A stretch of DNA of 64,000 nt from Streptomyces sp. NBC_01451 (GTDB taxonomy: Bacteria; Actinomycetota; Actinomycetes; Streptomycetales; Streptomycetaceae), in contig NZ_CP109479.1 in the NCBI RefSeq assembly GCF_036227485.1, positions 5,518,001 to 5,582,000 on the forward strand. The letters run 5' to 3'. Shown here piece after piece: positions 4,172 through 26,191 of the stretch. The notes under the pieces are model-generated. The model searched no databases. It was given only the letters and a program-made list of their open reading frames with translations, and was not told where the DNA came from. Both the position numbers and the translations under genes were made by a program. How positions within the stretch are numbered: position 1 is the first letter of the stretch; each line of letters opens with the position of its first letter.

Positions 4172-4210
4172 CCAGCTCTAACTCCCTGTTTCTGCAAGGG
4201 ACTTCTATAC

Positions 4211-4247
4211 GGCGCCCGCACGGCACGACCGGCCTGCGGGCGCCCCC
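4211..4247 (+). terminator. Terminator-like hairpin after the LamG gene
   Basis: A 10-bp perfect stem (GGCGCCCGCA at 4211-4220 paired with 4235-4244) is followed by CCCTTT. It lies between the LamG stop and the RHS start, so it may terminate or attenuate transcription between the two co-oriented genes. Confidence 0.6.
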
Positions 4248-4281
4248 TTTCACGCCTTCGCACCAAGAGAGAGGCCCTGCC

Positions 4282-7200: not shown

Positions 7201-10200
7201 TCGGACCTCGGTGACATCGGCGCGGACAAGGCCAACGCCGACACGGGCGACGACTCCTGCACGCGCTACGAGTACGCCCGCAACGACGCGAAGACCCTCC
7301 TCACCCTGGTGAAGCGGGTCTCGACGGTCGCCGTCAACTGCGACACCACCGCGGCCCTCCCCGCCGACGCGATCTCCGACGTACGCACGGTGTACGACGC
7401 CCTGGCGTACGGCGCCGAGCCCACCCAGGGCGAGGTGACCTCGTCGCGCCGGGTCACCGGCTACGGCACGGACGGCACCCCGACGCTCCAGACGGTCAGC
7501 AGGACCGAGTACGACGTCCACGGCCGCGTGACGGCGGGCTACGACACCAAGGACAACAAGACCGTCACGTCCTACACCCCGGCCACGGGCGGCCCGGTCA
7601 CGGGCATGAAGGTGACGACACCGCCGGCGGCGAGCGGCGGCACCGGCCAGAGCACGTCGTCCGTCGTCGACCCGGCCTTCGGCCTGGTCACCAGCACGAT
7701 CGACGCCAACTCCCAGCGCACCGACCTGGCGTACGACGCGCTGGGCCGCCTCACCAGGGTCTGGCTCCCGGGCCACGCGAAGGCCACCGACACACCCGAC
7801 ACCGAGTACGTCTACGGCATCCGCGCGGACGGCCCGACCTACGTCACCACGAAGACCCTGCGCGCCAACGGCAACGTCACGGTCGCCCACGCGCTCTACG
7901 ACGGCCTGCTGCGCGAGCGCCAGACCCAGTCACCGACCCCGAACACGGGCCGGGTGCTCACTCTCACCGAGTACGACTCGCGCGGGCTGGCGATCGTGCA
8001 GCACGGCCCGTTCTACAACCTGAACGACCCGGACACGACACTCGTCGACTCGTCCGCGGCGGTGGGCGGGACCCCGCCGGCCACGGAGACGGTGTACGAC
8101 GGGTCGGGGCGGGCGACGGCGACGCTGTTCAAGGTCGCGGGGACGACGAAGTGGCGCGGCGACACCACCTACCACGGTGACCACACCACGACCATTCCCC
8201 CTCCCGGCAGCACACCCGGCACCACCTGGAACGACGCCCAGGGCCGCACCACGAAGCTCGTCGAGTACGAGTCGGCCGACACCACCGGCGTCGCACGCAC
8301 CACGAACTACGCCTACGACAAGGCCGGGCGCCTCGCCCAGGTCACCGACACGACCGGCAAGAACGTCTGGAAGTGGACGTACGACCTGCTGGGTCGCAAG
8401 AAGACCGCGGTCGACCCCGACAAGGGCACCACGTCGCTGACCTACGACGAGTTCGACCAGGTCAGGACCACGACGGACGCACTCGGCCAGACCCTCACGT
8501 ACAGCTACGACAACCTCGGCCGCACCACGAAGATCGCCAACGGTACGACGGTCCTCAACTCGTGGGTCTACGACACCGTTTCACCCAACGGCGTCGGCCG
8601 TCTCACCTCCACCAGCTCCTTCAGCGGGGGCAACGAGTACAAGTCGACCGTCGAGGCGTACGACGCGGGCGGGCGGCCGACGAAGACCACGGTCACCGTC
8701 CCCGCCGCCGAGACGGGCCTGGGCGGCTCCTACACCACCACCGCCGAGTACCGGACGGACGGCACACCGAAGTCGATGACCCTCCCGGCGGCGGCCAACC
8801 TCGCCTCCGAGAAGATCAGTTACGGCTTCAACCTCGCCGGGCAGCCGCTCTACTCCTACGGCACCACGGACTACGTCCGCGACACCACCTACTCCAACTT
8901 CGGTGAGCCGCTCCAGCTCACGCTCGGCACGAGCAGTTCCGCCAAGCAGACCTGGATCACCAACTTCTACGAGGAAGGCACGCGAAGGCTCGCCCGGACC
9001 CGCCTCGACCGTGAGTCCGTCACCACTCCCGACTCCGACCTCAACTACGTCTACGACGCCTCCGGCAACGTCACCAGGCTCGCCGACACGCCCGAGGGCA
9101 AGACGGCCGACATCCAGTGCTTCCAGTACGACTATCTGCGCAGGCTCACCGACGCGTGGACGCAGACGTCCTCGACGTGCGCGGAACCCACGGCTGGCAG
9201 CACGGTCGGCGGCCCGGCCCCGTACTGGCACGAATACGCCTACGACGCGGCCGGCAACCGCACCAAGGAGACCCGCAACCCCGTCAACCCGGCGGCCGGC
9301 GGCAACTCCGCCCTCCGCACCACCAGCACGTACACGCCCAACACGGCCGGCACCTTCCCCGTCCACGCCCTGCGCGGCACGGCGGTGAAGACGGAGACGC
9401 TGAACTCCTCGGGTGCGGTGACGGCGACCGCCGACACCACCGAGAGCTACGGCTACGACGCGGCCGGCAACACCGTCACCCGCACCAAGCAGGCCACCGC
9501 GCTCAGCGCCGCCGTCGACCAGGTGCTGCGCTACAACTCGCAGGGCAGGCTGGCCTCCACGTCCAAGGTGGGCGAGAAGGGCCAGGTAACCGGCCTGGCG
9601 GGCAAGTGCGTCGACGTCCAGGGCAGCGTCACGACGGCGGGCACCCCGGTCCAGATCCTCACCTGCGGGACCAGCGACGCGCAGAACTGGGAGCTGACCA
9701 GGGACGGACAGCTCAAGGCCCTGGGAGTCTGCGCCGAACCCGCGGGTTCCGCCCAGTCGGCGGCCGTCCAGATCCAGCCCTGCGACACGGCCGACCCCAA
9801 CCAGAAGTGGAGCGTCCGCGACGACGGAGGTCTGCGGCACAACGCCTCCGGCCGCTGCCTGGACATCCCGTCCTCGGCCACGGCCGACGGCACCGACCTG
9901 AAGCTCCTCGACTGCAACGGCACCGCCGCGCAGCGCTGGGTCTTCGCCAAGCACACGTCGTACGTGTACGACGCCTCGGGCAGCCGTCTGATCCGGCGCG
10001 AGTACGGCAAGTCCACGCTCTACCTGGGCGACACCGAACTCACCGTCGACACCAAGAACACCGCCGTTACCACGGACGACGTCAAGTCGGCGGTCCGCTA
10101 CTACACCTTCGGCGGCGCCCCCGTCGCCATCCGCACGTCGCCCACCCAGGTGCACTGGCTGGGCGGCGGCTACAACGGCACGACCGAGATCTCGGTCGAC

Positions 10201-11325
10201 GCGGCCACCCAGGCGGTGACCCAGCGCCGCACGACACCCTTCGGCCAGATCCGGGGCACCGCGGGAGCCATCCCCGGCCAGAAGGGCTTCGTCGGCGCGG
10301 TCAACGACCCGGGCTCCGGCCTGGTCCACATGGGCGCACGTCAGTACGACCCGGCCCTGGGACGGTTCCTCTCCGTCGACCCGGTGCTCGACCTGACCGA
10401 CCCCCAGCAGTTCAACGCCTACACCTACGGGCGCAACAACCCGATCGCCTTCCCCGACCCGACCGGCCTGTGGTGGGGCTGGTCCGACATCGGTCACGCG
10501 GCGCTCGACGTCGTGGGCCTGGTGCCGGTGTTCGGCGAGGCGGCCGACGTCATCAACGGCGCCTGGTACCTCGCCGAGGGCAACTACCTCGACGCGGGGC
10601 TGTCGTTCTCCTCGGCCATCCCGCTCGCCGGGTACGCGGCCACGGCGGCCAAGGGCGCGAAGTACGCGGACGAGGCGATCGACGCGGCCAGGGCCGTGGA
10701 CAAGACCGTCGACGCGGCGTCCGACGCCAAGGCGGCCACCAAGGCCGCCGACGAGGTCGTCCCGCCGCCGGCGCCCAAGCCGAAGGAGGCACCCAAGCCG
10801 GAGAAACCGGCGAAGGCCAAGGACGAAGCCGGTGACCGGGGTTCCGGAGCGTCGTCGAAGAAGACCACGCGCAAGGACGCCAACGACCAGCCCACGGTGG
10901 TCAAGGGACGCGACCAGAAGAACGTCGGCGTCAAGGACAAGGGCCCGGAAAGCGTGGAAACCGGCAAGCGCGCCGACGGCGACACGGTCTACGCCGGACA
11001 CGGCTATCACGGGCAGAACTCCCGCGACATGATGGTCCCGCAGGGAACCACCCTGCACTTCTACGTCCCGCACAACATGAAGTTGAACGACTCGGTGGGC
11101 AAGGCGGTCGAGCAGGGCGGTGCGGGTGCGCCCAGCCCGGTGGAGTCCTTCGGACCGGGCTCGATCCTGCCCGACTACATCATTGCCCCACCGACGAATC
11201 TCAACATCATGGGAGGGAGCAGGACGGTGACCGAGGCGACCAACATCAGCAAGGTGATCAGCCAGGGAATGGGCGACGTCCACATGGCGATCTGCCGTGA
11301 GTTCAACTCCCTGCACTTCGGCTGA
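4282..11325 (+). CDS. Secreted RHS/YD-repeat polymorphic-toxin-like protein with ricin lectin insert
   Basis: This 2347-residue protein has a Sec signal peptide (residues 1 to about 46), a beta-rich region beginning near 330 (PQLSLSYNSGS), and many YD repeats (for example YDALGRLTRV, YDNLGRTTKI) from about 1000 to 1950. A ricin-type beta-trefoil with three Q-x-W-like units is inserted at about 1769-1890. The RHS core signature (RQYDPALGRFLSVDP, then NNPIAFPDPTG) lies near 2015-2063. After it come a hydrophobic helix pair, a Pro/Lys-rich linker (about 2155-2195) and a unique 120-residue C-terminus starting near VYAGHGYHG. The RHS shell usually encapsulates a C-terminal toxin. The tip here resembles the putative adhesin/Stv-type module of polymorphic toxins by its GHG and PQGTTLHFY motifs, which is a recognition from memory. 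The ATG at 4282 was chosen because it begins the signal peptide and follows AGAGAGAGG. Confidence 0.88.
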   Translation: MRVRTGAPPTPPEPRRRLRTAGRAVAAGLVGVLGITLLQAPAWAEVDEQAREQRRPKTQTMESVPVAPILWDKSAVPSDDATKASRTATPEVVWPTAGTAVAQLPLATLRKQALTGRLTRSQASVEGAAGTLPVRVSAPASVRSGLVSARGAVRSEAARTLTSRVPGKVSVRVLDRASARRAGMDGPVLTLTRADSTTVAASAGKVAVEVDYKKFARAYGGDWASRLRLVQLPACALTNPSAANCAPGKALPTTNDAKSGTLTAEVTVPGASGASAVKGARATTAAAAVLAVSAGSSGPNGSFAATPLTPAGTWQMAGNSGSFSWQYPLRVPPAVAGPSPQLSLSYNSGSVDGRTSSTSGQTSWVGEGFDLSQGYIERSYRSCKDDGHDTEGEEKYDQCWHSDNATMSFGGRNGELVKKSGADSSKTLDGNPDMKLEGTWRLKTDDGTKIERWSGGFNSGDSKEFWLVTTTDGTRYYFGRNKRTADDGEGVQDSAWQTPVYGDDSGEPCHGDTFKESRCNQTWRWNLDYVLDTHDNSMTLYWEKETNRYGADRDDVSVSYDRGGYLKRIEYGERKGTDLTSEAPARVVFGVAERCKAAAADCEPGDLKEDTASSWPDVPFDQICKDEDSCEEQWSPSFFSRKRLTSVTTEVRKSGGGYAPVDTWTLDQSYPDTGDGSTASLWLQSITHTGKANGATSEALKTVFYGVKNDNRVYANTDGRLPMGKWRIRAIRSETGGVTSVTYKDTECKSGETRTPSNNTKLCFPSFWSEEGSIGEDEDWFHKYVVDTVAEDDATVPGVDKTTRYTYYGGAAWRYDDSEITKAKKKTWSQFRGFRTVRTVTGDSTTKQLSAESTFLRGMDGDRANEDGGTEDVWTTASDGTRVQDADRLQSYLLETRTYSSVPADTAADRAAKEVTGSVNTPWLSAATATEGSDKAQLTGTARVDTRTALDGSAVRRTAIVHDYDSYGMLKQSSDLGDIGADKANADTGDDSCTRYEYARNDAKTLLTLVKRVSTVAVNCDTTAALPADAISDVRTVYDALAYGAEPTQGEVTSSRRVTGYGTDGTPTLQTVSRTEYDVHGRVTAGYDTKDNKTVTSYTPATGGPVTGMKVTTPPAASGGTGQSTSSVVDPAFGLVTSTIDANSQRTDLAYDALGRLTRVWLPGHAKATDTPDTEYVYGIRADGPTYVTTKTLRANGNVTVAHALYDGLLRERQTQSPTPNTGRVLTLTEYDSRGLAIVQHGPFYNLNDPDTTLVDSSAAVGGTPPATETVYDGSGRATATLFKVAGTTKWRGDTTYHGDHTTTIPPPGSTPGTTWNDAQGRTTKLVEYESADTTGVARTTNYAYDKAGRLAQVTDTTGKNVWKWTYDLLGRKKTAVDPDKGTTSLTYDEFDQVRTTTDALGQTLTYSYDNLGRTTKIANGTTVLNSWVYDTVSPNGVGRLTSTSSFSGGNEYKSTVEAYDAGGRPTKTTVTVPAAETGLGGSYTTTAEYRTDGTPKSMTLPAAANLASEKISYGFNLAGQPLYSYGTTDYVRDTTYSNFGEPLQLTLGTSSSAKQTWITNFYEEGTRRLARTRLDRESVTTPDSDLNYVYDASGNVTRLADTPEGKTADIQCFQYDYLRRLTDAWTQTSSTCAEPTAGSTVGGPAPYWHEYAYDAAGNRTKETRNPVNPAAGGNSALRTTSTYTPNTAGTFPVHALRGTAVKTETLNSSGAVTATADTTESYGYDAAGNTVTRTKQATALSAAVDQVLRYNSQGRLASTSKVGEKGQVTGLAGKCVDVQGSVTTAGTPVQILTCGTSDAQNWELTRDGQLKALGVCAEPAGSAQSAAVQIQPCDTADPNQKWSVRDDGGLRHNASGRCLDIPSSATADGTDLKLLDCNGTAAQRWVFAKHTSYVYDASGSRLIRREYGKSTLYLGDTELTVDTKNTAVTTDDVKSAVRYYTFGGAPVAIRTSPTQVHWLGGGYNGTTEISVDAATQAVTQRRTTPFGQIRGTAGAIPGQKGFVGAVNDPGSGLVHMGARQYDPALGRFLSVDPVLDLTDPQQFNAYTYGRNNPIAFPDPTGLWWGWSDIGHAALDVVGLVPVFGEAADVINGAWYLAEGNYLDAGLSFSSAIPLAGYAATAAKGAKYADEAIDAARAVDKTVDAASDAKAATKAADEVVPPPAPKPKEAPKPEKPAKAKDEAGDRGSGASSKKTTRKDANDQPTVVKGRDQKNVGVKDKGPESVETGKRADGDTVYAGHGYHGQNSRDMMVPQGTTLHFYVPHNMKLNDSVGKAVEQGGAGAPSPVESFGPGSILPDYIIAPPTNLNIMGGSRTVTEATNISKVISQGMGDVHMAICREFNSLHFG

Positions 11326-11349: not shown

Positions 11350-11397
11350 GCGGCCGGTCACCTCCGGATCCACGGACATCCGGAGGTGACCGGCCGC
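11350..11397 (+). terminator. 20-bp perfect hairpin after the RHS gene
   Basis: A perfect 20-bp inverted repeat (11350-11369 with 11378-11397, 8-nt loop) follows the RHS stop codon. It lacks a T-run but is very stable, so it is likely a terminator or mRNA-end stabiliser between the RHS gene and the small gene at 11428. Confidence 0.7.
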
Positions 11398-11427
11398 CCC
11401 CCGTTCCAGAACGGACGAGAACCGAGA

Positions 11428-11847
11428 ATGCCGTACTACCCGGACTTCAGCCTCTACGACTACGACTACTACTCCCCGCCGGAGGGCAGCACCATCGGCT
11501 GGCTGATGAAAGGGCACGAGTACCAGCGGGGCGACGTGGAGATCGAGGACCTGGAGAACCTCGCGGACCTGGGATACCTGCTGGAGGAACAGAGCCGCGG
11601 TTACCACTACTGCACGTTCTGCGGAAAGGCGGAGCTCCAGTACGCGTGGTCCGAGCGATTCGACTCCAAGTACTCCCTGGGAAGCGCGGAGATCAGAGTG
11701 AGGTCGGCCGACGGGACGCTCTACATCGCGCCGAACCTGATCACCCACTACATCCTGGACCACGGCTACCTGCCGCCTGCCGAGTTCCTGGAAGCCGTCC
11801 GCGCGGACGTGCGACGACGCTGGCCCGAGGGGCCGGAACGACCGTGA
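11428..11847 (+). CDS. Small CxxC protein, DUF7919-like; candidate immunity protein
   Basis: This 139-residue cytoplasmic protein starts MPYYPDFSLYDYDYY. It contains a CTFCGK knuckle near residue 61, the segment EIRVRSADGTLYIAPNLITH, and a following H-x-x-x-D-H-G-Y. This pattern resembles the DUF7919 family as I recall it, and the CxxC plus histidines could bind zinc. Its place directly after an RHS toxin-like gene is the classic position of an immunity gene, but that role is inferred from position only. ATG 11428 follows a GGACGAGAACCGAG ribosome binding site; an earlier in-frame start at 11386 lies inside the hairpin and is unlikely. Confidence 0.75.
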   Translation: MPYYPDFSLYDYDYYSPPEGSTIGWLMKGHEYQRGDVEIEDLENLADLGYLLEEQSRGYHYCTFCGKAELQYAWSERFDSKYSLGSAEIRVRSADGTLYIAPNLITHYILDHGYLPPAEFLEAVRADVRRRWPEGPERP

Positions 11848-16994: not shown

Positions 16995-19900
16995 TCAGTT
17001 GCCCGGGCGGTACGGCAGCGGCGGCACCCGGAGTCCCAGGAACTCGGTCCGCGTGCCCTCCAGCATTTCCAGGGCCCAGTTCAGCCACTTGACGCCCTCG
17101 CAGTAGATGGCGACCGGGCGGCGCTGGGTCTGGAAGCTGTCGAGGAGGGTGCCGTCCAGTTCCTGCTGGAAGTGGAAGGGCGGCATCGCCGTGAAGTGCT
17201 GGCCCATCATGAAGACGAACCGGATCAGCCAGTACGGGTCGTCCCTCAGGAACGGCGAGCCGGGGTCGTCCAGGCCGAGCGCCGCCGTCATCACGGGCGC
17301 GAACCAGTCCTCCATGCCGTCGGGGGAGCCGGGGTCGACCGAGCCCCCGGTCGCGACCACATCCCTTACGCGGTAGGCCCGTTGGTACGGGTTGCCGTCG
17401 TGGAACGCGATGTCGACGCGCGGCGCGGCCCCTTCCTCGCCGGCCTCCACGTTCATCGTGAACTGCTCGAAGTGGATCTCGTCGTAGTGGCCGATGGAGT
17501 TGTGCCAGGGCTTGTTGTCGTACATCGCGTCGTCGCGCGTGTCCCGGCCCTCACCCTTGAAGCCGATCGCGCGCGGGTCTAGGAACCTGATGCCCAGCGC
17601 CTCGGCGGTGATCGCGTCGAGAGCCGCCCGCACCTGCCCCTCGTCCGCCCCGGACTCGATCAACCGCTGCGCGTGCAGCAGGGGTTCACTGTTCGTGAGC
17701 TTGATGTTCTCGGTGTTCGTGTCGCCCATGACGAGCGAGTGGAAGGCCGGTTCGAGGATCTCCAGGAATTCGGGGGCCGCCCGGAAACGCTTCAGCAGGG
17801 CACCGGAGTTGAGGTAGGAGACGCCGTTGACGACGATCCGTTCGGTGTCCAGGAGCGCGGAGCCGAAGGTGCGCGGTGCCGTTCGGCGGCACAGGGCGAG
17901 CCGGTCCTCGATCTTCCGGAAGTAGGAGATGTCCAGCGTCTCGCCGGGCGCCGCGACCCGTCCGACGCTGTGCACGTCCTCGTACAGCACCCGGATGATC
18001 TGCTCGTAGAGACGGGCGACCACGGCCGGCGGCGGAGTGTGCCGTTCCACGAACCGGCTGACCTCGTCCCCGGCCACGTAGCTCATCTCGTAGATGACCT
18101 CGCGCCCGACCTCGCGCCCGCCCGCGCGAGCCGAATCACCGGCCGAATCACCGGCCGAATCACCGGCCGGGTCACCGGCCGGGTCATGGGCCGGACCGCC
18201 GACCGGGACCTCGCGTTCCCGTACGTCGTACACCTCGGGGAAGTAGTCGCGCACCGGGGCGGGCAGGGACTGGAGGAACTCGGCCTGCTTGGCGGCCTTC
18301 GCGAACGGCGGGAGCATCACTCCGTCGCCGTCCGGGTGCCAGTGGGCGGTCGTCAGGGCCTCGCTGAGGATCTTGCGGACCGTGATCCGTTCCTCGCCCG
18401 CCTTCCTGACGAAGATCGTCATGGACTCGCTGCCGCCCTTGCCGAAGCCGACGATCGCCTCGTCGATGTGGGTGTAGGCGTAGACCGTGCTGGAGAGGAG
18501 GCGGCGGCTGCGGGCGTTGTGCAGGACGCGCTCGTTCTCCTCGGTGAGCGCGAGGACACAGGCGGACTCGAAGTCGTCCAGGGCCGGGTTGAGCCGCCTC
18601 TTCCAGGACTCGGCGGGCTCCGTGATCCGGACGAGACGGGCGTCGTACCGCCCGGTGTCGAGACCGTCGTGACCGGCCGCCGGGTCCGAACCCAGCGCGA
18701 GAACCTGGCAGTTGCCGTTGAGATGAACCCGGCGCACCCCGCCGTCCAGGGCGCCGGACAGCAGGACGGCCCGGGTCGCGTCCTGGAGGTCCCTGCGGGA
18801 CTGCACCGGCACACCCTCCGGCGAGACCAGGGGAATCTCGGCCTCGGTGAGCCGCTCCAGCATCCGCTCCACAGCCTCCCGGCGCGGACGCGCCTCGCGC
18901 TGCCCGACCTGCCCGACCTGCTCGTACTGCTCGAACAGGACGACCGCGTCGGCCGGTGGCAGCGAACCGGCAACGGCGAGCGCGACCAGCCAGCCGAGCG
19001 GGTCGCCGCCTTCGAGATAGTGGTCGCTCTGTGCGAACAGGGCGGGCCGGTGCTGCACCAACGCGTCGAACAGCAGGTACTGGTAGACGACCCGGTGACC
19101 GATCCGGGGAATCGTGTCGTCGCCGAGCGAGTCCAACTGGTCCAGCCGGTCGAGATGCAGGCCTTCGAGCATGCGGTTGTAGGTCTGCAGCGCCGTCGGC
19201 TGGGTGTCGAGGAGCAGCCGGGTCCGACGGGCCATGGTCTCCGCGTCGACGCCCCCGAGCCCGTCGAAGTGGAAGACGACCACCTCGGGGCGGGCGGTGT
19301 CGACCGTCCGCGTGCCGGTGTTCCCGGCGCGGTCGAGCACCTTCAGCTCGACGGTGGCCCGGCCCAGTAGCGCGGGATCCTCCTGCGCCGCCGTGGTGAT
19401 CCGCTTCTTCAGCCGCGCCTTGACGGCCAGTTCGCCCCGGCCGACGGCGAGGTGCTCCCGGTGGTTCCGGGTGTGCTGGAAGGTTTCGAGGAACGCGTAG
19501 AACGCCGCCGACCCCTCCCGCGAGGGGCTCAGCATCTCCGCGGTGATGACCCGGCCGAGGGAGCGCGAGAAGTAGTCGTCGCAGAACTCGCTCCGGTCGG
19601 CGAGCCGGAAGAGCTCGCGCAGAATGTCGTATGGCGCCTGGTGCGTTTCCCGTGCTTCCCGCGCTTCCAGCGGCTGCTCGTCCGCCGCGTAGAGCCGCTC
19701 CAGCGACGCCATGAGCGCGTCCATGACGGTGACGGCCCGGAGGAACGTCTCGGTGTCCTCCTCGCTGCCTGTGTACGCCATCACCGGAGCGGCGAAGTCG
19801 TTGTCCCGCAGGAGCTGTACGGACTTGGCGCCCGGGCCCAGTTCCAGGACCACGTCCGTGTCGAGGCCGCCGAGGATCTCGCAGGTGTCCCGGGACGCCA

Positions 19901-20918
19901 TGACCTGGTCCGTCATGGCCAGCACACCGCGCCGGACGCCGGCCGCGGTGGTGAGGAGGGACGCGTCGTGGTTCGACACCACGGGGACGCGGGGCTCCTC
20001 GAAGCGGATGCGGTTGACGTCGAGGAATCGTTCCAGCGCGTGCCGGGCGGGGCGCATCCGGGAGGAGTGGGCCAGAAAGACGGTCGGGTCCTTCAGCTCC
20101 TCGGTGGCGATGTGCGGATGCGCGGCCATGAACCGGTCGAAGCCCGCCTTGACGCCGGTACGGACGTACAGATTGGCCTGTGTCGGCGAGTACGCCTTGT
20201 GCAGCTCGACGTCCCGGGCCGGATACGAGCCGCGGATCTCGTCCAGCACGGTGGCGAGCGCGTCGGGGGTCGGGGCCCGCAGGGCCAGGACGTGGGAGGG
20301 CTCCGGGACGAGGGGCGTACGGCGGACGGACTCGGGGAGGTACCGGGCGATGGCGCGGGCGAAGGGCTCGTCGTACGAGGGCGCGGCCGTGTCGGCCGGG
20401 TCGGTACCGGCGGCCAGCAGCATCAGCGGGGTGAACGCCTGGGCGATCTTGACGCCGTCGAACACCGACAGGGAACCGCTCGCCACGGCCGCCGCCAGGA
20501 TGCCGAAGCTCTCGCCGGTGTAGGCGACGAGGCCGACGGGGGTGCCGTTCTCGTCGATCCGGTCCCGCAGGAAGGCGTCCAGGGCCAGGCTGTGCACCAG
20601 CAGGGCCGCGCCGATGAAACCCTGTCGCTCGATCGGCTCGCCGGGCAGGTTCTCGGCGGTCGGCAGCAGCCGTTCCGGCCGGCCGGGCACGCCCAGTGCG
20701 CGGGCGGCCTCCTCGTACAGGGCGGTGATCTCGGGGACGCCCGAGTCGAGCAGGGTCCGGCCGAGGTTCCGGTAGGCGGCGCGGCTGCCGAGGCCGGGGA
20801 AGAAGCCGGCGACGCGGATGCGGTCCTTGGTGCGGAGGTCGTCGACGGGGGCGAGGCGGTCGGGGGCGGTCGCGGTGGTGGCCGGGTTCGGGACGGTGTG
20901 GGTCAGGGACCGGGGCAC
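16995..20918 (-). CDS. Multidomain acyltransferase / pseudo-acyltransferase / APH-like kinase
   Basis: This 1307-residue protein shows three parts. Residues about 35-400 form a FabD/PKS-type acyltransferase: FPGLGS (40-45), nucleophile motif GESFG (Ser137), a candidate catalytic His284 in LAHSSRM, and ELGPG (359-363). The Arg that binds a malonyl carboxylate in FabD appears replaced (KIAQAF, 158-162). Residues about 545-745 follow the same pattern (FDGLGG, then GGDPLG at 637-642, then IPLVSPEGVPV), but the GHSLG serine is proline, so this copy looks catalytically dead. Residues about 825-1200 resemble choline/aminoglycoside kinases: Lys849 in ITVRKI, GDTNTENI (Asp1066, Asn1071) and FLDPR (Asp1114). 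GTG 20918 follows GAGAAGG. An acylated and phosphorylated small molecule is a reasonable guess, but the substrate is unknown. Confidence 0.8.
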   Translation of the reverse strand: MPRSLTHTVPNPATTATAPDRLAPVDDLRTKDRIRVAGFFPGLGSRAAYRNLGRTLLDSGVPEITALYEEAARALGVPGRPERLLPTAENLPGEPIERQGFIGAALLVHSLALDAFLRDRIDENGTPVGLVAYTGESFGILAAAVASGSLSVFDGVKIAQAFTPLMLLAAGTDPADTAAPSYDEPFARAIARYLPESVRRTPLVPEPSHVLALRAPTPDALATVLDEIRGSYPARDVELHKAYSPTQANLYVRTGVKAGFDRFMAAHPHIATEELKDPTVFLAHSSRMRPARHALERFLDVNRIRFEEPRVPVVSNHDASLLTTAAGVRRGVLAMTDQVMASRDTCEILGGLDTDVVLELGPGAKSVQLLRDNDFAAPVMAYTGSEEDTETFLRAVTVMDALMASLERLYAADEQPLEAREARETHQAPYDILRELFRLADRSEFCDDYFSRSLGRVITAEMLSPSREGSAAFYAFLETFQHTRNHREHLAVGRGELAVKARLKKRITTAAQEDPALLGRATVELKVLDRAGNTGTRTVDTARPEVVVFHFDGLGGVDAETMARRTRLLLDTQPTALQTYNRMLEGLHLDRLDQLDSLGDDTIPRIGHRVVYQYLLFDALVQHRPALFAQSDHYLEGGDPLGWLVALAVAGSLPPADAVVLFEQYEQVGQVGQREARPRREAVERMLERLTEAEIPLVSPEGVPVQSRRDLQDATRAVLLSGALDGGVRRVHLNGNCQVLALGSDPAAGHDGLDTGRYDARLVRITEPAESWKRRLNPALDDFESACVLALTEENERVLHNARSRRLLSSTVYAYTHIDEAIVGFGKGGSESMTIFVRKAGEERITVRKILSEALTTAHWHPDGDGVMLPPFAKAAKQAEFLQSLPAPVRDYFPEVYDVREREVPVGGPAHDPAGDPAGDSAGDSAGDSARAGGREVGREVIYEMSYVAGDEVSRFVERHTPPPAVVARLYEQIIRVLYEDVHSVGRVAAPGETLDISYFRKIEDRLALCRRTAPRTFGSALLDTERIVVNGVSYLNSGALLKRFRAAPEFLEILEPAFHSLVMGDTNTENIKLTNSEPLLHAQRLIESGADEGQVRAALDAITAEALGIRFLDPRAIGFKGEGRDTRDDAMYDNKPWHNSIGHYDEIHFEQFTMNVEAGEEGAAPRVDIAFHDGNPYQRAYRVRDVVATGGSVDPGSPDGMEDWFAPVMTAALGLDDPGSPFLRDDPYWLIRFVFMMGQHFTAMPPFHFQQELDGTLLDSFQTQRRPVAIYCEGVKWLNWALEMLEGTRTEFLGLRVPPLPYRPGN
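18131..18190. repeat. 12-bp tandem repeat inside the acyltransferase-kinase gene
   Basis: Five consecutive 12-bp units (CCGAATCACCGG three times, then two CCGGGTCA variants) encode an Ala-Gly-Asp-Ser/Pro repeat at residues about 910-930. It lies in a loop of the kinase N-lobe, so copy-number change would only alter linker length. Confidence 0.85.
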
Positions 20919-21142: not shown

Positions 21143-21183
21143 AGAGTGTTAAGTGCGCTGGTCGTGGTCGTGCACGAAAGAAA

Positions 21184-21220
21184 GCAGGGTCGGGAAACCG
21201 TAAAGGTTTCCCGACCCTGC
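21184..21220 (-). terminator. Strong terminator after the MFS gene
   Basis: A perfect 16-bp stem (21184-21199 with 21205-21220, loop GTAAA) is followed on the minus strand by a T-rich TTTCTTTC. It lies 40 bp past the MFS stop and insulates the acyltransferase-kinase operon from MFS transcription. CTTTT on the other side could make it bidirectional. Confidence 0.9.
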
Positions 21221-21260
21221 CTTTTCTGGGGGTTGTTTCTGGCGTGCGCGAAACGGATTC

Positions 21261-22469
21261 CTACTGAACGCCGGCTTCCACATTCTCCGCCCGTCGGGCA
21301 ACGCCCGGCGAGGCGGCCCGCGCCACCGAGGTGCCGCCGCCCAGCGAACCCGCCACCGCGACACCGAGTCCGGCGAGGGCGAGCGCGGCGCCGACCCAGA
21401 GCGGGGAGACGAAGCCGTACCCGGCGGCGAGGGTGAGGCCGCCGATCCAGGCGCCGAGCGCGTTGCCGACGTTGAAGGCGGCGATGTTGGCGCCGGAGGC
21501 CATGGTGGGCGCGTCCGAGGCGTACTTCATGGCGCGGGCCTGGAGGCCGGGCGCCGCGGCGAGGCCGATGGCGCCCATCAGCAGCAGGGCGACGATCGTC
21601 GCGATCTTGTTCTCGGCGGTGAGGGCGAAGAGGGCCATGACGACGGCGAGGCCGGCCATGGCGCCGATCAGGGTGTTGTTCAGGGACTTGTCGGCAGCCT
21701 TGCCGCCGAAGAAGTTGCCGACGAACGTGCCGACGCCGAACAGGACGAGCAGCCACGGCACCGCACTGTCGGAGAAGCCGCTGACCTCGGTGAGCGTGAA
21801 GGCGATGTAGGTGTAGCCGCCGATGACACCGCCGAAGGCGAGGATGCTCAGCGTGATGGAGACCCACACCTGACCGCGCCGGAACACGGCGAGCTCGGTG
21901 CGCAGGTCGGTCGGCGCGGACGCGGTGCTCTGCGGGACCAGGGCCTGGATACCGGCCAGGGTGACGAAGCCCAGGATCGTGATCGCCCAGAACGTGGAGC
22001 GCCAGCCGAGCTGCTGGCCCAGGAAGGTGCCGAGCGGCACGCCGAGCACGTTGGCGGCGGTCAGTCCACCGAACATGAGGGCGATGGCGCTGCCCTTCTT
22101 GTTCTCGGCGACCATGTCGGACGCGACGACGGCGCCGACGCTGAAGAAGGCGCCGTGGCACAGGGCGGCGACGACCCGGCCGACCATGAGCAGCGAGTAG
22201 GTCGGGGCGACGGCGGAGAGCAGGTTGCCGACGATGAACAGGGTCATCAGTCCGACGAGGACCTTCTTGCGGTCGAAGCGGGCGATCGCGGCGGTGAGCC
22301 CGAGGGCGCCGATCGCGACGCTCAGCGCGTAGCCGGAGACCAGGTACCCGGCCACGGACTCGGAGACGTCGAAGTCGTCTGCCACCTCGGGCAGCAGTCC
22401 TACGATCCCGAACTCCGTGAGGCCGATACCGAAGCCTCCCAGAGCCAGGGCGATAAGCCCGATAGGCAT
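21261..22469 (-). CDS. MFS drug/metabolite exporter (DHA1, AraJ/Cmx type)
   Basis: This 402-residue protein has twelve predicted membrane helices with the DHA1 pattern: an N-terminal GIGLTEFGIVGLLPEVADDF helix, the loop motif RFDRKK between helices 2 and 3, and the motif C-like GVPLGTFLGQQLGWR in helix 5. Such proton antiporters export drugs, arabinose-like sugars or secondary metabolites. ATG 22469 follows GGAGG. It is divergent from an ArsR-family gene with an operator-like palindrome between them, so it is probably controlled by that regulator. Confidence 0.88.
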   Translation of the reverse strand: MPIGLIALALGGFGIGLTEFGIVGLLPEVADDFDVSESVAGYLVSGYALSVAIGALGLTAAIARFDRKKVLVGLMTLFIVGNLLSAVAPTYSLLMVGRVVAALCHGAFFSVGAVVASDMVAENKKGSAIALMFGGLTAANVLGVPLGTFLGQQLGWRSTFWAITILGFVTLAGIQALVPQSTASAPTDLRTELAVFRRGQVWVSITLSILAFGGVIGGYTYIAFTLTEVSGFSDSAVPWLLVLFGVGTFVGNFFGGKAADKSLNNTLIGAMAGLAVVMALFALTAENKIATIVALLLMGAIGLAAAPGLQARAMKYASDAPTMASGANIAAFNVGNALGAWIGGLTLAAGYGFVSPLWVGAALALAGLGVAVAGSLGGGTSVARAASPGVARRAENVEAGVQ

Positions 22470-22662
22470 GAGAAAACCCTCCGTTGCGATGAATGGCTGC
22501 GCTGTATGACGAAGCGCCAACGCATCGAAGTATCGCAGAACCTCGATATGAACTGTCAACCCCGCCCGGTGGAGGCTTCGTCGCTGGTGGGGGGCGTGCG
22601 GCGACCGCCGGAAGGGTCCCGTCGCAGGTCAGAGCGCACCCGCCGTTCAGGTGACGTATCGC

Positions 22663-22720: not shown

Positions 22721-23137
22721 ATGACGACTCACGACCTGCCCACGACGGGCGACCTCACCTCGCTGCTGGAGCCCCTCAAGGCGCTCGCCAACCCGGTGCG
22801 CCTCCAGGTGCTTCAGTGGCTGCGCGACCCCGAGGACCACTTCCCGGTCAACCCGGAGGTCACCGATCCGCGCAGGGTCGGTGTCTGCGTCAGCCATATC
22901 CAGGCCAAGACCGGGCTCGCCCAGTCCACCGTCTCCGCCTACATGGCCACGCTCGAACGCGCGGGTCTCGTCCGCTCGACGCGCGTCGGCAAGTGGACCC
23001 ACTACCGGCGCGACGAGGAACGCATCGCCTGGCTCGTCGAGGAACTGCGCGGCGGCGTCGGAAACGGCACCGGGAACGATGCCGGGAGCGGTGCCGGAAA
23101 CACCGAGGGCCTCAGCCTGCTGGAGACCGTCTCCTAG
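22721..23137 (+). CDS. ArsR/SmtB-family transcriptional regulator
   Basis: This 138-residue protein has a winged helix-turn-helix with the family segment LLEPLKALANPVRLQVLQWL (residues 14-33), the recognition helix in TGLAQSTVSAYMATLERAGL, and the wing VGKWTHYRRD. Its single cysteine in VGVCVSHI does not form the classical CVC metal site, so the inducer may be an organic molecule. A Gly/Asn-rich tail follows. ATG 22721 follows GGAAGG. Its stop overlaps the convergent receptor gene by 4 bp. Control of the divergent exporter is inferred from the arrangement. Confidence 0.85.
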   Translation: MTTHDLPTTGDLTSLLEPLKALANPVRLQVLQWLRDPEDHFPVNPEVTDPRRVGVCVSHIQAKTGLAQSTVSAYMATLERAGLVRSTRVGKWTHYRRDEERIAWLVEELRGGVGNGTGNDAGSGAGNTEGLSLLETVS

Positions 23138-23856
23138 CCCGCTCCCTCCACGGTTTCCTCCACGGCTTCCTCCGCCGTGTCCTGCGGCTTTTCCTCCCCC
23201 GCTTTCCCGGCCTCGTTCTCGACCGGTTCCTTCGCCACTTCCTTCACCGCATCCGGCGGCACCGTCGTGCGCAGTCGGGGCAGTATCCCCGGGGCCGCCA
23301 GGCCGGACAGGATCAGGCGCCACAGCGCCCCTATCCGCGTGGGCAGGTCCTGCCGGTTGCTGTACGCCTGGGACATCACCTGCAGGCCGGTGAACGACCC
23401 GACGACCGTCGACGCGACCTCGGCGATGTCCGTGCCGGGCAGGAGCTCGCCCTGTTCGTCGGCCTTGCGGAGGAGATCCTCGATCACCTTGATCGCCTGG
23501 TTGTACGGGGTCTGCGCGGGCGGCGCGAAGGATGACTGCTCCACCGCCAGCCGTACGCTCGCCCGCAGCACCGTGTCGTACTGGAGCCGCTGGGCGAATC
23601 CCAGGGTCAGGTCTATGACCGCCTGGAGTTTCATCGGCTGGTCCGGCACCACCAGGGCCTCGCCCTGCGCCTCCAGCAGCGCGGTGGCGATCGCCTCCTT
23701 GGAGGGGAAGTGGTGGTAGAGGGCGCCCCGGGTGAGGCCGGCTCTCGCGAGGATCTCGTTGGTGCTGGCCGCGTCGTACCCGCGCTCGCCGAACACGCCT
23801 GCGGCGGCCTCCAGGATCGAGCGTTTCGACCTGATGCCTCGCTCCTGCTGGGCCAT
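23134..23856 (-). CDS. TetR-family gamma-butyrolactone receptor homologue (ScbR/ArpA type)
   Basis: This 240-residue protein has an N-terminal TetR helix-turn-helix (ERGYDAASTNEILARAGLTR, then GALYHHFPSKEA, residues about 24-56). The ligand domain closely follows the ScbR/ArpA pattern (MKLQAVIDLTLGFAQRLQYD, VGSFTGLQVMSQAYSNRQDL). Family members bind ARE palindromes and release them on binding gamma-butyrolactone or related signals. An ARE-like site lies before its own start, implying autoregulation. Unusually, about 35 acidic, Glu-rich residues (EVAKEPVENEAGKAGEEKP) extend the C-terminus. Whether it is a true receptor or a pseudo-receptor cannot be told from sequence. Confidence 0.9.
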   Translation of the reverse strand: MAQQERGIRSKRSILEAAAGVFGERGYDAASTNEILARAGLTRGALYHHFPSKEAIATALLEAQGEALVVPDQPMKLQAVIDLTLGFAQRLQYDTVLRASVRLAVEQSSFAPPAQTPYNQAIKVIEDLLRKADEQGELLPGTDIAEVASTVVGSFTGLQVMSQAYSNRQDLPTRIGALWRLILSGLAAPGILPRLRTTVPPDAVKEVAKEPVENEAGKAGEEKPQDTAEEAVEETVEGAG

Positions 23857-23884
23857 CCCCGGTCCTCGCATCTCCCGCTCGGAA

Positions 23885-23911
23885 AAAATACAAACCGGTC
23901 TGCATTGTATG
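23885..23911. promoter_or_regulatory. ARE-like site before the receptor gene
   Basis: ATACAAACCGGTCTGCATTGTAT lies within this interval, a near-palindrome around ACCGGT with the ACANAC-type half sites of gamma-butyrolactone receptor boxes. It is about 30 bp upstream of the receptor ATG, suggesting autorepression. Confidence 0.6.
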
Positions 23912-23992
23912 CGGCCGGATTGCACGGGGAAATTCCGCAGCCCGTTTCGAGTCACGGCGGTGAGGACGGCAAGTGCCCATGTGGCGACGGCT

Positions 23993-24718
23993 TCAGGGGT
24001 GTCCGAGGCGGAATCCGACCCCGCGCACCGTGACGATCCAGTTGCTGGAGCCGAGTTTGCCCCGAAGGCTGCTGACATGTGTGTCGATGGTGCGTCCGCG
24101 GTGTGACCAGTCGTCGTCCCAGACCTGGCTCATCAACTGACGCCGGGACAGGGTGGTGTCGGGCTGGGAGGCGAGCAGGTGGAGCAGGTCGAACTCCTTG
24201 GGCGTCAGGTACACCCGCCTTCCCTCCAGCAGGAGTTCGCGTATCCGCGCGTCGATGCGCAGCGGCCCGTACGTGATGACCTGCTGGGGCGTCGGCGCCT
24301 GCCGCGGTCTCGCCCGGCGCATCACCGCCTCCATGCGGGCCAGCAACTCCCGGAACCGGTAGGGCTTCACGAGGTAGTCGTCCGAGCCCGCCTGAAGTCC
24401 GAGTACGCAGTCCAGTTCGGCCCCGCGCGTGGTCACGGTGATGATCGGGACGTCGCCGGCCGCCCGGATCCGGCGACACACCTCCAGGCCGTCCAGGTCG
24501 GGCAGGTCGAGGTCGAGCAGGACCAGGTCGACGCTGTGGTGGGCCTGGAGCGCGAGGGCGGCGGTGGGAACGCTCCTGGCCAGATGGCCGTGCCGGCACA
24601 GTTCCTGCACCAGGCTGTCCGCGGCCTGCGCCTCGTGCTCCACGACGAGCACCCTCAACGCGTCCGTTTCCTGCTGCTCCTGGTGCGGCCTGGCTGAATC
24701 CACGACCTGCTGATTCAT
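23993..24718 (-). CDS. Atypical OmpR/PhoB-type orphan response regulator
   Basis: This 241-residue protein has a receiver domain (residues about 21-135) and a winged-helix DNA-binding domain (about 150-240, with VYLTPKEFDLLHLLASQPDT). The phosphoacceptor Asp69 (LLDLDLPDLDG) and the VKPYRFREL lysine are present. The acidic metal pocket reads VVEHEA (27-29), with His where an acidic residue is usual, so phosphorylation may be impaired. No histidine kinase gene is adjacent. JadR1-like atypical regulators are found in comparable positions in gamma-butyrolactone-controlled antibiotic loci. ATG 24718 follows AGGAGGG. Confidence 0.88.
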   Translation of the reverse strand: MNQQVVDSARPHQEQQETDALRVLVVEHEAQAADSLVQELCRHGHLARSVPTAALALQAHHSVDLVLLDLDLPDLDGLEVCRRIRAAGDVPIITVTTRGAELDCVLGLQAGSDDYLVKPYRFRELLARMEAVMRRARPRQAPTPQQVITYGPLRIDARIRELLLEGRRVYLTPKEFDLLHLLASQPDTTLSRRQLMSQVWDDDWSHRGRTIDTHVSSLRGKLGSSNWIVTVRGVGFRLGHP

Positions 24719-24776
24719 CTCTGCCCTCCTGAGGCACGCCACGGCGAACTGGTGAGCGGGTACCGCCAAGGACGGT

Positions 24777-24800
24777 AACAGGCAACTCGGTCTGTTTGTC
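24777..24800. promoter_or_regulatory. Possible ARE before the response regulator gene
   Basis: The stretch contains ACAGGC and, seven bases later, TCTGTTTGT, giving weak dyad symmetry like gamma-butyrolactone receptor boxes. It lies about 60 bp upstream of the response regulator ATG. The match is weaker than the sites at 23885 and 25018. Confidence 0.4.
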
Positions 24801-25017
24801 AACGCGTTATGGATGGCCTGTGCAGTCGTCGGGTTGTCGACACGGATGTCAGACCTGTGCAGCTGATAAGTCCGTAATCTTGAGGTTTATTGCTGTTCGG
24901 CCTTGCGGAATGCTGACTTCCGTCTCTGTTCCGGGTGGGGACGCGTATGAGAAGTGAACGTAACTGGCGCGTAAACCAAGCGCGTCGGCATGTCTTTAGT
25001 AAGGTTTTACTCTGTAA

Positions 25018-25035: not shown

Positions 25036-25126
25036 ATCTTGGTGACTGCACAGCGTTCATCAGGGATGGGGGTCCTGACGCGCGGTCCGGCTTGCCCCTG
25101 TCCACAAACAGACAGGAGTGCCGAGG

Positions 25127-26191
25127 ATGCCGAGTCCGACCCGAGTGCCCGGGACCGACACCGCCTCGCCGACCGGTTCACTGCTGACCACCACGGTTCC
25201 CCGCGGCTATGTCCACCGTGCCGCCGTGGCCGAGGTGTTCCTCACCGGCTGGGAGGCCGCCCCGACCGCGCCGGCCGCCCTCGCCTCCGCCGCGTCCCCC
25301 GCCGCATCTCCCACCGGGTCCGACTCCTTCGTCGTCCGCGCCCAACTGCCTCGCGGCCACGCGCTGTTCGCGCCGGCCCACGGCCACCAGGACCCGCTCC
25401 TCCTGCTGGAGTCGATCAGGCAGGCCGGCACCCTGCTGTCCCACGCCGAGTACGGCGTCCCGTTCGGCCACCAGTTCCTGATGTGGGGCCTGTCCTTCGC
25501 CGCGACCCCAGCCGCCCTCACCGCCGGCGCCACCCCGACCGACGTCGAACTGCACACGGTGTGCCACGACATCGTGCGCCGGGGCCGGACCATCTCGGGC
25601 ATGCGTTACGACGTCTCCGTCCGGCGCGACGGAGTGCCGGTGGCCACCGGCGGAGCGAGCTTCGGCGTCACCAGCCCCGCCGTCCACCGCCGGCTGCGCG
25701 AAGGCCGCCCCACCACGGTGGACCGTGCCCTGCCGGCCCCGGTCGACCCGGCCGACGTGGGCCACACGGACCCGGGCAACGTCCTGCTCGCCGCCCCGGC
25801 ACGGACCGGCGGGGCGAACGGCAGGGTGAGCGGCGGCGTGAGGGGCGGGGCGAACCGGTGGGCGAACAGATGGGAGCTCCGGGTGGACACCGACCACCCC
25901 ATCCTCTTCGACCACCCCGTCGACCACGTCCCCGGCATGCTGCTGATCGAGGCGGCCCGACAGGCGGCCCGCGCCGCGACCGGCCGTCCCGACGCGCTTC
26001 TCCTCGGCCTCGAAAGCCGCTTCACCCGGTACGCCGAACTCGACGCCCCCTGCTGGATCGAGGCCCGCGTCGCCCGCCCCGGCGCCGTCGGCCCCGGCCG
26101 GGCCCAGGACCTCCGGGTCCACGTCCTCGCCACCCAGCAGGGCGAACGCGTCTTCGCCGCCGACCTGGTCCTGCGCGACCCAGCCGCCTGA
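25127..26191 (+). CDS. AfsA/ScbA-type gamma-butyrolactone biosynthesis protein
   Basis: This 354-residue protein contains two AfsA hotdog repeats: residues about 20-195 (VPRGYVHRAAVAEVFLTGWE, ESIRQAGTLLSHAEYGVPFG) and about 225-350 (DHPILFDHPVDHVPGMLLIE). AfsA enzymes join a beta-keto acyl-ACP to dihydroxyacetone phosphate, the key step of A-factor-type signal synthesis. The ARE palindrome upstream and the receptor gene 1.3 kb away fit a complete signal and receptor pair. ATG 25127 follows ACAGGAG at good spacing; the in-frame GTG 25118 is too close to it. A Gly/Arg-rich linker (about 228-250) with GGANG-type repeats separates the halves. Confidence 0.92.
   Translation: MPSPTRVPGTDTASPTGSLLTTTVPRGYVHRAAVAEVFLTGWEAAPTAPAALASAASPAASPTGSDSFVVRAQLPRGHALFAPAHGHQDPLLLLESIRQAGTLLSHAEYGVPFGHQFLMWGLSFAATPAALTAGATPTDVELHTVCHDIVRRGRTISGMRYDVSVRRDGVPVATGGASFGVTSPAVHRRLREGRPTTVDRALPAPVDPADVGHTDPGNVLLAAPARTGGANGRVSGGVRGGANRWANRWELRVDTDHPILFDHPVDHVPGMLLIEAARQAARAATGRPDALLLGLESRFTRYAELDAPCWIEARVARPGAVGPGRAQDLRVHVLATQQGERVFAADLVLRDPAA

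Follow-up and report, generated by a model that had tools for sequence, protein, structure and literature searches.

CORE, a 1307-residue protein of Streptomyces sp. NBC_01451, and NB, the product of the gene directly downstream, stand an even chance of forming an undescribed and self-contained machine in which acyl transfer and phosphorylation are coupled on a single polypeptide. As read from sequence, this machine would have NB as its dedicated partner, would make an exported signal or antibiotic, and would have spread across phyla and into fungi, where its two proteins are fused. We hold with slightly less than even confidence that a compact small-molecule pathway, built on acyl transfer and phosphorylation and spread horizontally, has CORE and NB at its enzymatic centre. 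All coordinates refer to the window, the whole 64,000-nucleotide stretch of DNA analysed, where the two genes are:

16995..20918, minus strand: CORE, an open frame with a GTG start encoding an acyltransferase (AT), pseudo-AT and kinase-like fusion of 1307 aa
15478..16971, minus strand: NB, a 497-aa repeat protein and conserved partner, with no Pfam family

The start of CORE falls at the same place in close homologues, and the ATG of NB lies 23 nt past the CORE stop, with AGGAGG just 5' of NB. A database search with CORE returned 178 matches, and coverage of CORE is at least 92% in 116 of the 120 matches listed. The named loci come from many genera, and the family extends across several bacterial phyla and into fungi. 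Its presence is sporadic, with a full-length copy in 4 of 296 genomes of the class (its own genome counted) and, among relatives, in 1 of 41, namely its own genome. No Pfam model matches CORE at E ≤ 10, and no Pfam or NCBIfam model above its cut-off covers it, in keeping with the sequence-only reading that the architecture belongs to no standard family. The searches made found no description of CORE or CORE-NB in the literature.

Many of the matches are named ACP S-malonyltransferase, and CORE might accordingly be taken for an ordinary FabD, a simple malonyltransferase, or for a gene-calling error. Such an explanation is hardly credible; it is already contradicted by the near-complete coverage of CORE among the matches listed, by the range of genera, and by the missing malonyl-binding Arg and the low fabD score described below.

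The three regions of CORE

The sequence-only reading divided CORE into a FabD-type acyltransferase, a second acyltransferase-like region and an APH/choline-kinase-like domain. This three-part architecture, with its intact and its missing catalytic residues, is borne out by profile comparisons and alignment. The regions and key residues, all on the minus strand, are:

19719..20831: AT1, FabD-type acyltransferase, residues 30-400
20508-20510: Ser137 of AT1
20067-20069: His284 of AT1
18549..19301: pseudo-AT, residues 540-790, weak acyltransferase signal
18993-19007: pseudo-AT elbow GDPLG, lacking Ser, residues 638-642
16998..18521: kinase-like domain, residues 800-1307 (start approximate), with GxGGSESMT and remote APH homology
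18372-18374: K849 of the kinase-like domain
17721-17723: D1066 of the kinase-like domain
17706-17708: N1071 of the kinase-like domain
17577-17579: D1114 of the kinase-like domain

In a 66-row alignment, all 59 ungapped rows keep Ser137 of AT1 (in TGESFG), and the count is likewise 59 of 59 for His284 (in FLAHSSRM); the catalytic pair stands as first numbered. Residues 30-400, for which Pfam gives nothing at the threshold above, match the acyltransferase superfamily in profile-profile comparison. Against an alignment of 18 FabD/PKS-type acyltransferase sequences (18 used of 30 loci fetched), the probability is 98.4 and the E-value 5e-15 over 272 columns; the best PDB match is a FabD (E 9e-10). 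AT1 resembles FabD (TIGR00128) and the acyltransferase domains of PKSs in fold family, nucleophile Ser and catalytic His, but it carries GESFG where they have GHSxG and Phe where they have Arg, and it is fused to the pseudo-AT and kinase-like parts. The FabD Arg that aligns with Phe162 of AT1 binds the malonyl carboxylate; this position is Phe in 58 and Leu in 1 of 59 ungapped rows. Because this Arg is replaced by Phe, ACP S-malonyltransferase is probably a misnomer for the CORE family, many of whose database entries are labelled as a housekeeping malonyltransferase even though the malonyl-binding residue is missing. The NCBIfam fabD model itself scores 31.8 bits against CORE (1e-7), far under its cut-off of 260.9.

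Since AT1 is nearest to FabD and the PKS acyltransferases, it could act in trans on a polyketide or fatty-acid synthase encoded elsewhere, as its loader or as an editing hydrolase, with the kinase part regulatory or inactive. This seems quite improbable. Only one PKS model matches CORE, its best stretch being residues 30-164, and the Pfam and NCBIfam models give no match to a ketosynthase or ACP within the protein. Among the best 12 clusters of small open reading frames (20-140 residues) within 2.5 kb of CORE, no conserved one was recognised, nor was a carrier protein or a precursor peptide of the class V lanthipeptide or thioamitide type; the larger clusters, judged by eye, look like conserved promoter DNA or like antisense or frame shadows cast by known genes. 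The kinase catalytic positions are moreover invariant, unlike those of a decayed domain, and the kinase part occurs with NB where AT is missing from the stretch examined. Cluster mining by ketosynthases or carrier proteins would probably miss the CORE locus.

The second region was read as acyltransferase-like, a pseudo-acyltransferase, and a weak signal agrees with this. Profile-profile comparison with acyltransferases gives an HH probability of 6-10% and E-values of 0.003-0.006, in register at the nucleophile elbow, and the scores of 27.9 and 28.2 exceed the shuffle maxima of 22.2 and 19.2 (50 shuffles per target). The position of the nucleophile Ser is occupied by another residue in the 59 rows tallied out of 60 ungapped ones.

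In the third region, all 64 ungapped rows agree on each of K849, D1066, N1071 and D1114, which follow the order Lys, Asp, Asn, Asp of the APH superfamily; we take them to be the catalytic positions of APH-type kinases. The loop Asp and Asn at APH spacing, the following Asp, the G-rich loop and the Lys liken this region to the APH family (PF01636), from which it differs in having neither a Pfam match nor a clear direct profile match. The catalytic loop of CORE reads MGD, and the position of the APH catalytic-loop His is Met, Val or Ile across the family. The Pfam APH model has no match in CORE or its C-terminal domain at E ≤ 10, and comparison of this domain with PDB sequences found no kinase. 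Set directly against Streptomyces APH proteins with hhalign, the region scores 21.8 (22 of 30 APH rows used), where the best of the 28 shuffles scored out of 30 reaches 22.2. A second run again gives 21.8, where 40 shuffles reach at most 21.2; with Pfam-bounded APH rows (26 of 30 loci fetched) the score is 10.5. An EcKL identity was also considered and rejected, the profile comparison being negative (6 rows used of 25 loci).

A capsule-type kinase family does align, with a probability of 96.0 and an E-value of 3.9e-9 over 204 columns for three bridge sequences, and a score of 74.4, where the highest of 40 shuffles is 25.1. The bridge alignment holds three of seven fetched loci, the others (L146, L148, L149 and L150) having failed the motif filter. 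Two of three scanned proteins of this family pass the Pfam APH cut-off, only one of those two being a bridge row, and the bridge rows match the Streptomyces APH alignment with an E-value of 0.04. Linked through this bridging family, residues from about 800 to 1307 look like a remote APH-superfamily kinase. Of the APH/choline-kinase-like domain first proposed, the invariant residues and the bridge homology stand, whereas a Pfam match is absent and the direct APH comparison is marginal to negative. The capsule-type NTP-transferase/kinase proteins align with CORE by their kinase half but differ in having a nucleotidyltransferase-like half (two of three scanned) where CORE has an AT half, and in the HGD catalytic loop of the three bridge rows. 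They are annotated as capsular biosynthesis, as aminoglycoside phosphotransferase family or as hypothetical protein.

The partner protein NB and fused forms

CORE is not a singleton, and the survey of homologue neighbourhoods that had been proposed adds NB, a second protein that accompanies it, to the one gene first noticed. NB is present in 51 of 55 loci, and in 46 it lies on the same strand no more than 350 nt downstream of CORE. These loci are the window and 54 named ones; L086-L088 were left out of 58, their kinase regions being identical in the tree to those of L002, L004 and L012. Two identities were tried for NB and rejected, namely a LanC toroid (score 14.6 versus a maximum of 15.2 in 30 shuffles; 9 rows used of 16) and a GH88 alpha/alpha toroid (score 11.3; two of two rows, without shuffles).

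In the fungal homologues, CORE and NB form one protein, with identities of 44% over 1283 columns in the CORE part and 46% over 474 in the NB part. The fungal kinase parts group with Acetobacteraceae in a kinase tree from which rows L016, L028, L043, L054 and L055 were excluded for stops or length. This fusion is a natural test for which parts must work together. Two Omnitrophota open reading frames (L029, L041) match CORE and, twice over, NB. In cyanobacteria, as in some proteobacteria, the stretch examined contains kinase and NB but no AT, so that the kinase-NB unit may be able to do without acyl transfer.

Of the loci that carry AT as well as kinase, most join the two in a single chain, and at an Actinoplanes locus (L036) they are joined without the pseudo-AT. 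Their joining in one chain suggests consecutive steps, as would suit an acyl-activation route in which the kinase activates the substrate, as an acyl phosphate or a phosphorylated hydroxyacid, AT1 or NB closes a lactone, ester or amide, and the phosphate leaves and does not appear in the product. We judge this route unlikely, given that AT and kinase are split into two open reading frames at four actinobacterial loci (L028, L030, L031 and L051) and that kinase-only loci exist.

Genomic neighbourhood and the proposed pathway

Upstream of CORE, the window contains:

21181..21223: 19-nt inverted repeat (95%) with a 5-nt loop, between the MFS gene and CORE, a possible terminator
21261..22469, minus strand: Cmx/CmrA-like MFS efflux transporter, below model cut-off; ATG at 22469 read from sequence
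22524..22547, minus strand: near-palindrome ATCGAGGTTCTGCGATACTTCGAT, closely following a TTGACA box 5' of the MFS gene
22721..23137, plus strand: ArsR-type winged-helix regulator, divergent from the MFS gene
23134..24078, minus strand: TetR-family regulator (TetR_N, TetR_C_45; Pfam)
23993..24802, minus strand: response regulator with a winged-helix output domain (Pfam)
25118..26191, plus strand: AfsA-type (A-factor biosynthesis hotdog) protein (Pfam)

The best models for the MFS pump are chloramphenicol-efflux families, all under cut-off. A Cmx-like MFS gene lies near CORE in 27 of the 55 loci; the other 28 lack one in the stretch examined, some of these stretches being short, and L002, L003, L019 and L020 have an MFS gene of another type. 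The near-palindrome at 22524..22547 is a possible operator; elements like it were found at 8 of the 10 Streptomycetaceae loci inspected besides the window. Where the window has an ArsR-type gene, LysR- or MarR-type genes lie near CORE in some other lineages, and at four enterobacterial loci (L024, L026, L034 and L043) the unit is LysR-MFS-CORE-NB.

The nearest pump models, the ArsR-, LysR- or MarR-type genes close by, the operator-like element at the MFS promoter and the enterobacterial unit would all suit resistance or detoxification, with CORE-NB acylating and phosphorylating a toxic compound and the MFS pump exporting the compound or its conjugate. This, too, is an improbable reading. CORE and NB together comprise about 1,800 residues, which is large for a drug-modifying enzyme, the pump is missing from many loci in the stretch examined, and in Streptomycetaceae the nearby AfsA, TetR and response-regulator genes fit a locus for biosynthesis.

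In the preferred small-molecule pathway, AT1 would take a non-carboxylated acyl group from acyl-CoA or acyl-ACP and load it onto Ser137, with His284 as base; a small polar acceptor would then receive the group on a hydroxyl or amine. With ATP as donor, the kinase would phosphorylate either this acceptor or the acylated product, the pseudo-AT would have a structural role, and NB would hold the complex or an intermediate, or add a third activity. The product would leave through the MFS pump under a local regulator. For an exported small molecule, the combined acyl-transfer and phosphorylation role first suggested for CORE agrees with the neighbourhood; the kinase activity of CORE is predicted from motifs and remote homology. 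Should a pump and two proteins make up the pathway, it would be easy to express in a laboratory host, and secreted molecules of a new class might result.

The AfsA, TetR and response-regulator genes 2-5 kb upstream of CORE recall the butyrolactone (AfsA/TetR-type) clusters of Streptomyces. Butyrolactone-type genes regulate clusters of many kinds and do not define the CORE locus; they were not found in most other CORE lineages examined, but occur at several other Streptomycetaceae CORE loci. Among the 55 loci, tblastn matches, some of them weak, were obtained for AfsA in 11, for the response regulator in 15 and for TetR in 14.

Gene layout and the partner protein

Acyl transfer and phosphorylation appear to be joined in a single chain in CORE, a fusion protein composed of an acyltransferase region (AT1, residues 30-400), a second region termed pseudo-AT (540-790) and a kinase-like part (approximately 800-1307). 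The start site of CORE matches the position where its close homologues begin, and its gene is followed directly by that of NB, a 497-aa repeat protein. The features of this part of the window are:

16995-20918, minus strand: CORE gene, an open frame with a GTG start encoding 1307 aa
15478-16971, minus strand: NB gene, starting at 16971, 23 nt past the CORE stop, with AGGAGG in front
21181-21223: inverted repeat between the MFS and CORE genes
21261-22469, minus strand: gene for a Cmx-like MFS efflux transporter, upstream of CORE
22524-22547: near-palindromic element at the MFS promoter
Upstream of CORE, divergent: gene for an ArsR-type regulator
Upstream of CORE: genes for a TetR regulator, a response regulator and an AfsA-type protein

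Pfam searches with 33 NB members gave no match better than E 0.07, and searches of PDB sequences with NB gave none beyond one at E 0.5. The protein repeats internally with a period near 44-50 residues, its off-diagonal self-comparison reaching E 4e-9 against 0.4-0.8 in the four printed shuffles. A LanC- or GH88-like identity was negative at the sensitivity of the profile comparison used. Across 55 loci (54 named plus the window, three duplicates excluded), NB is present in 51, and in 46 it lies on the same strand, no more than 350 nt from the kinase end. The arrangement differs in L029, L034, L036, L043 and L049, where NB is duplicated, broken, upstream or 3 kb away. The neighbour search of the 55 loci did not find NB in L023 (contig end), L035, L045 or L054; a short NB-like piece in L054 was detected by a different search.

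Domain make-up of CORE

A single-sequence search with AT1 returned no Pfam match at E<=10, and its NCBIfam matches (malonate decarboxylase epsilon, 2.5e-8; fabD, 1e-7; and a PKS model, 2.8e-6, with its best stretch at residues 30-164) all fall far below the cut-offs. A 66-sequence profile matched a FabD structure at 9e-10 in the PDB search; 18 FabD-/PKS-type acyltransferases, aligned with the profile of residues 25-400, gave a probability of 98.4 over 272 columns. Ser137, Glu136 and His284 are invariant in all 59 ungapped rows, and the site aligned to the malonyl-binding Arg of FabD is occupied by Phe (58 rows) or Leu (one). This replacement would make a neutral acyl donor more likely than malonyl.

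When residues 540-790 were compared with AT1 of the same family, the nucleophile elbow was aligned (E 0.005, score 27.9), and an alternative alignment, whose query range overlaps the first in part, lies further along AT1 (score 27.1, E 0.006), against at most 22.2 in 50 shuffles. With the 18 acyltransferase rows as target, the elbow was aligned once more (score 28.2, E 0.003), above the highest of 50 shuffles (19.2). Because the HH probabilities of these matches are just 6-10%, this region is considered only a probable second acyltransferase-like part. Its nucleophile position is other than Ser in the 59 rows tallied (of 60 ungapped). In a natural variant from Actinoplanes (L036, 9806-12520), with NB upstream, AT1 and the kinase part are joined but a stretch of about residues 438-791 is missing, so the pseudo-AT region is dispensable.

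No kinase was found in the third region by Pfam or PDB sequence searches, and its direct comparison with APH proteins was marginal or negative. The stretch LDPRAIGF...DDAMYDNKPWHNSIGHYD is presumably like that of capsule-type kinases. A search with a consensus of this motif retrieved eight plasmid records and two genomes; seven loci were kept, and the three past the motif filter served as bridge rows linking the CORE kinase part to APH. Set against 33 rows of the CORE kinase part, they gave 204 columns at a probability of 96.0 (E 3.9e-9, score 74.4), against a maximum of 25.1 in forty shuffles and 14-17 for AT1, pseudo-AT and NB. Two of three capsule-type proteins scanned, only one of them a bridge row, passed the Pfam APH cut-off of 23.2 bits (24.2 and 28.1; the third, 15.8). 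The bridge rows reached only E 0.04 with a Streptomyces APH alignment, which counts against the APH reading; the thinness of this last link slightly lowers confidence in the proposed mechanism. Among 64 ungapped rows, K849, D1066, N1071 and D1114 of CORE are invariant (64/64), and the APH His position holds Met (54), Val (7) or Ile (3). The sequence-only reading had placed an APH/choline-kinase-like domain here; the region is accepted as a remote APH-superfamily kinase, its activity being predicted from sequence.

The libraries and literature searched yielded no described family or system that combines the parts of CORE-NB; the single domains come from known superfamilies.

Fused, split and reduced forms

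Three database proteins (P0116-P0118) carry CORE and NB in a single chain. Two are named Xylariaceae and Trichoderma, and the third was assigned to fungi by likeness; in P0116, identity is 44% over 1283 columns for CORE and 46% over 474 for NB. A 62-row tree of the kinase domain, its root placed for drawing only, clusters the three with five Acetobacteraceae rows (support 100/100), suggesting that the fungal genes may have come from bacteria. The Xylariaceae and Trichoderma records lie a short tree distance apart. Spread of the fusion gene between fungi is suggested as well.

Two Omnitrophota ORFs (L029, L041) combine a CORE match with a double NB match. CORE is split near residues 700-729 in four actinobacterial loci, and its frame breaks at one place, residues 837/843 inside the kinase N-lobe, in four Acetobacteraceae loci (L037-L040). 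The kinase part also occurs in cyanobacteria and some proteobacteria, mostly with a diverged NB and with no AT in the stretch examined. From these shapes we infer that AT, kinase and NB work together in one process, with kinase plus NB as its smallest form.

Additional N-terminal sequence also occurs. Giant ORFs, the largest of 3224 aa, carry a long additional segment ahead of CORE/NB in the Omnitrophota loci L029, L041 and L042, and P0062, L030, L031 and L051 begin with about 290-350 additional residues, which in P0062 and L031 had no Pfam match at E<=0.1.

Gene surroundings and a proposed pathway

The family is sporadic, with a full-length copy in 4 of 296 class genomes, the genome of the window among them. 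By tblastn at E<=1e-6, with some matches below 40% identity and some locus stretches short, the 55 loci contain matches to the Cmx-like MFS (27), ArsR-like regulator (18), response regulator (15), TetR (14), AfsA (11), LysR (6) and MarR (6). Four enterobacterial loci share the gene order LysR, MFS, CORE, NB. The MFS gene of the window is preceded by a TTGACA box with an ATCGA...TTCGAT element after it; of 10 other Streptomycetaceae loci examined, 8 share this arrangement, and the element was not seen in L002 and L005. The element occurs once in the window, and its pattern was derived from the window site itself, so the shuffle control is not independent. The divergent ArsR-type regulator may use the near-palindrome at 22524-22547 as its operator.

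A pump and local regulator, plus butyrolactone-type genes in several Streptomycetaceae, would suit a small exported product. That CORE and NB form a two-protein pathway combining acyl transfer and phosphorylation is the most likely reading, tentatively held; competing readings are that the pair is a detoxification system, or that the phosphate serves as a leaving group.

In L044 (9800-18737), a kinase-NB pair is followed by a 2Fe-2S protein, a molybdopterin hydroxylase, a zinc alcohol dehydrogenase and Polyketide_cyc2 and Amidohydro_2 proteins, and gene order is similar in Nostoc loci. The L044 neighbours are a possible clue to the kinase substrate.

Elsewhere in the window, the plus strand at 3892-11325 encodes a 2477-aa RHS-repeat protein that has an internal ricin-B-type lectin domain and, at its C-terminus, a Stv domain. 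It resembles a polymorphic secreted protein; the 153-aa DUF7919 protein encoded after it (11386-11847, plus strand) is a possible partner.
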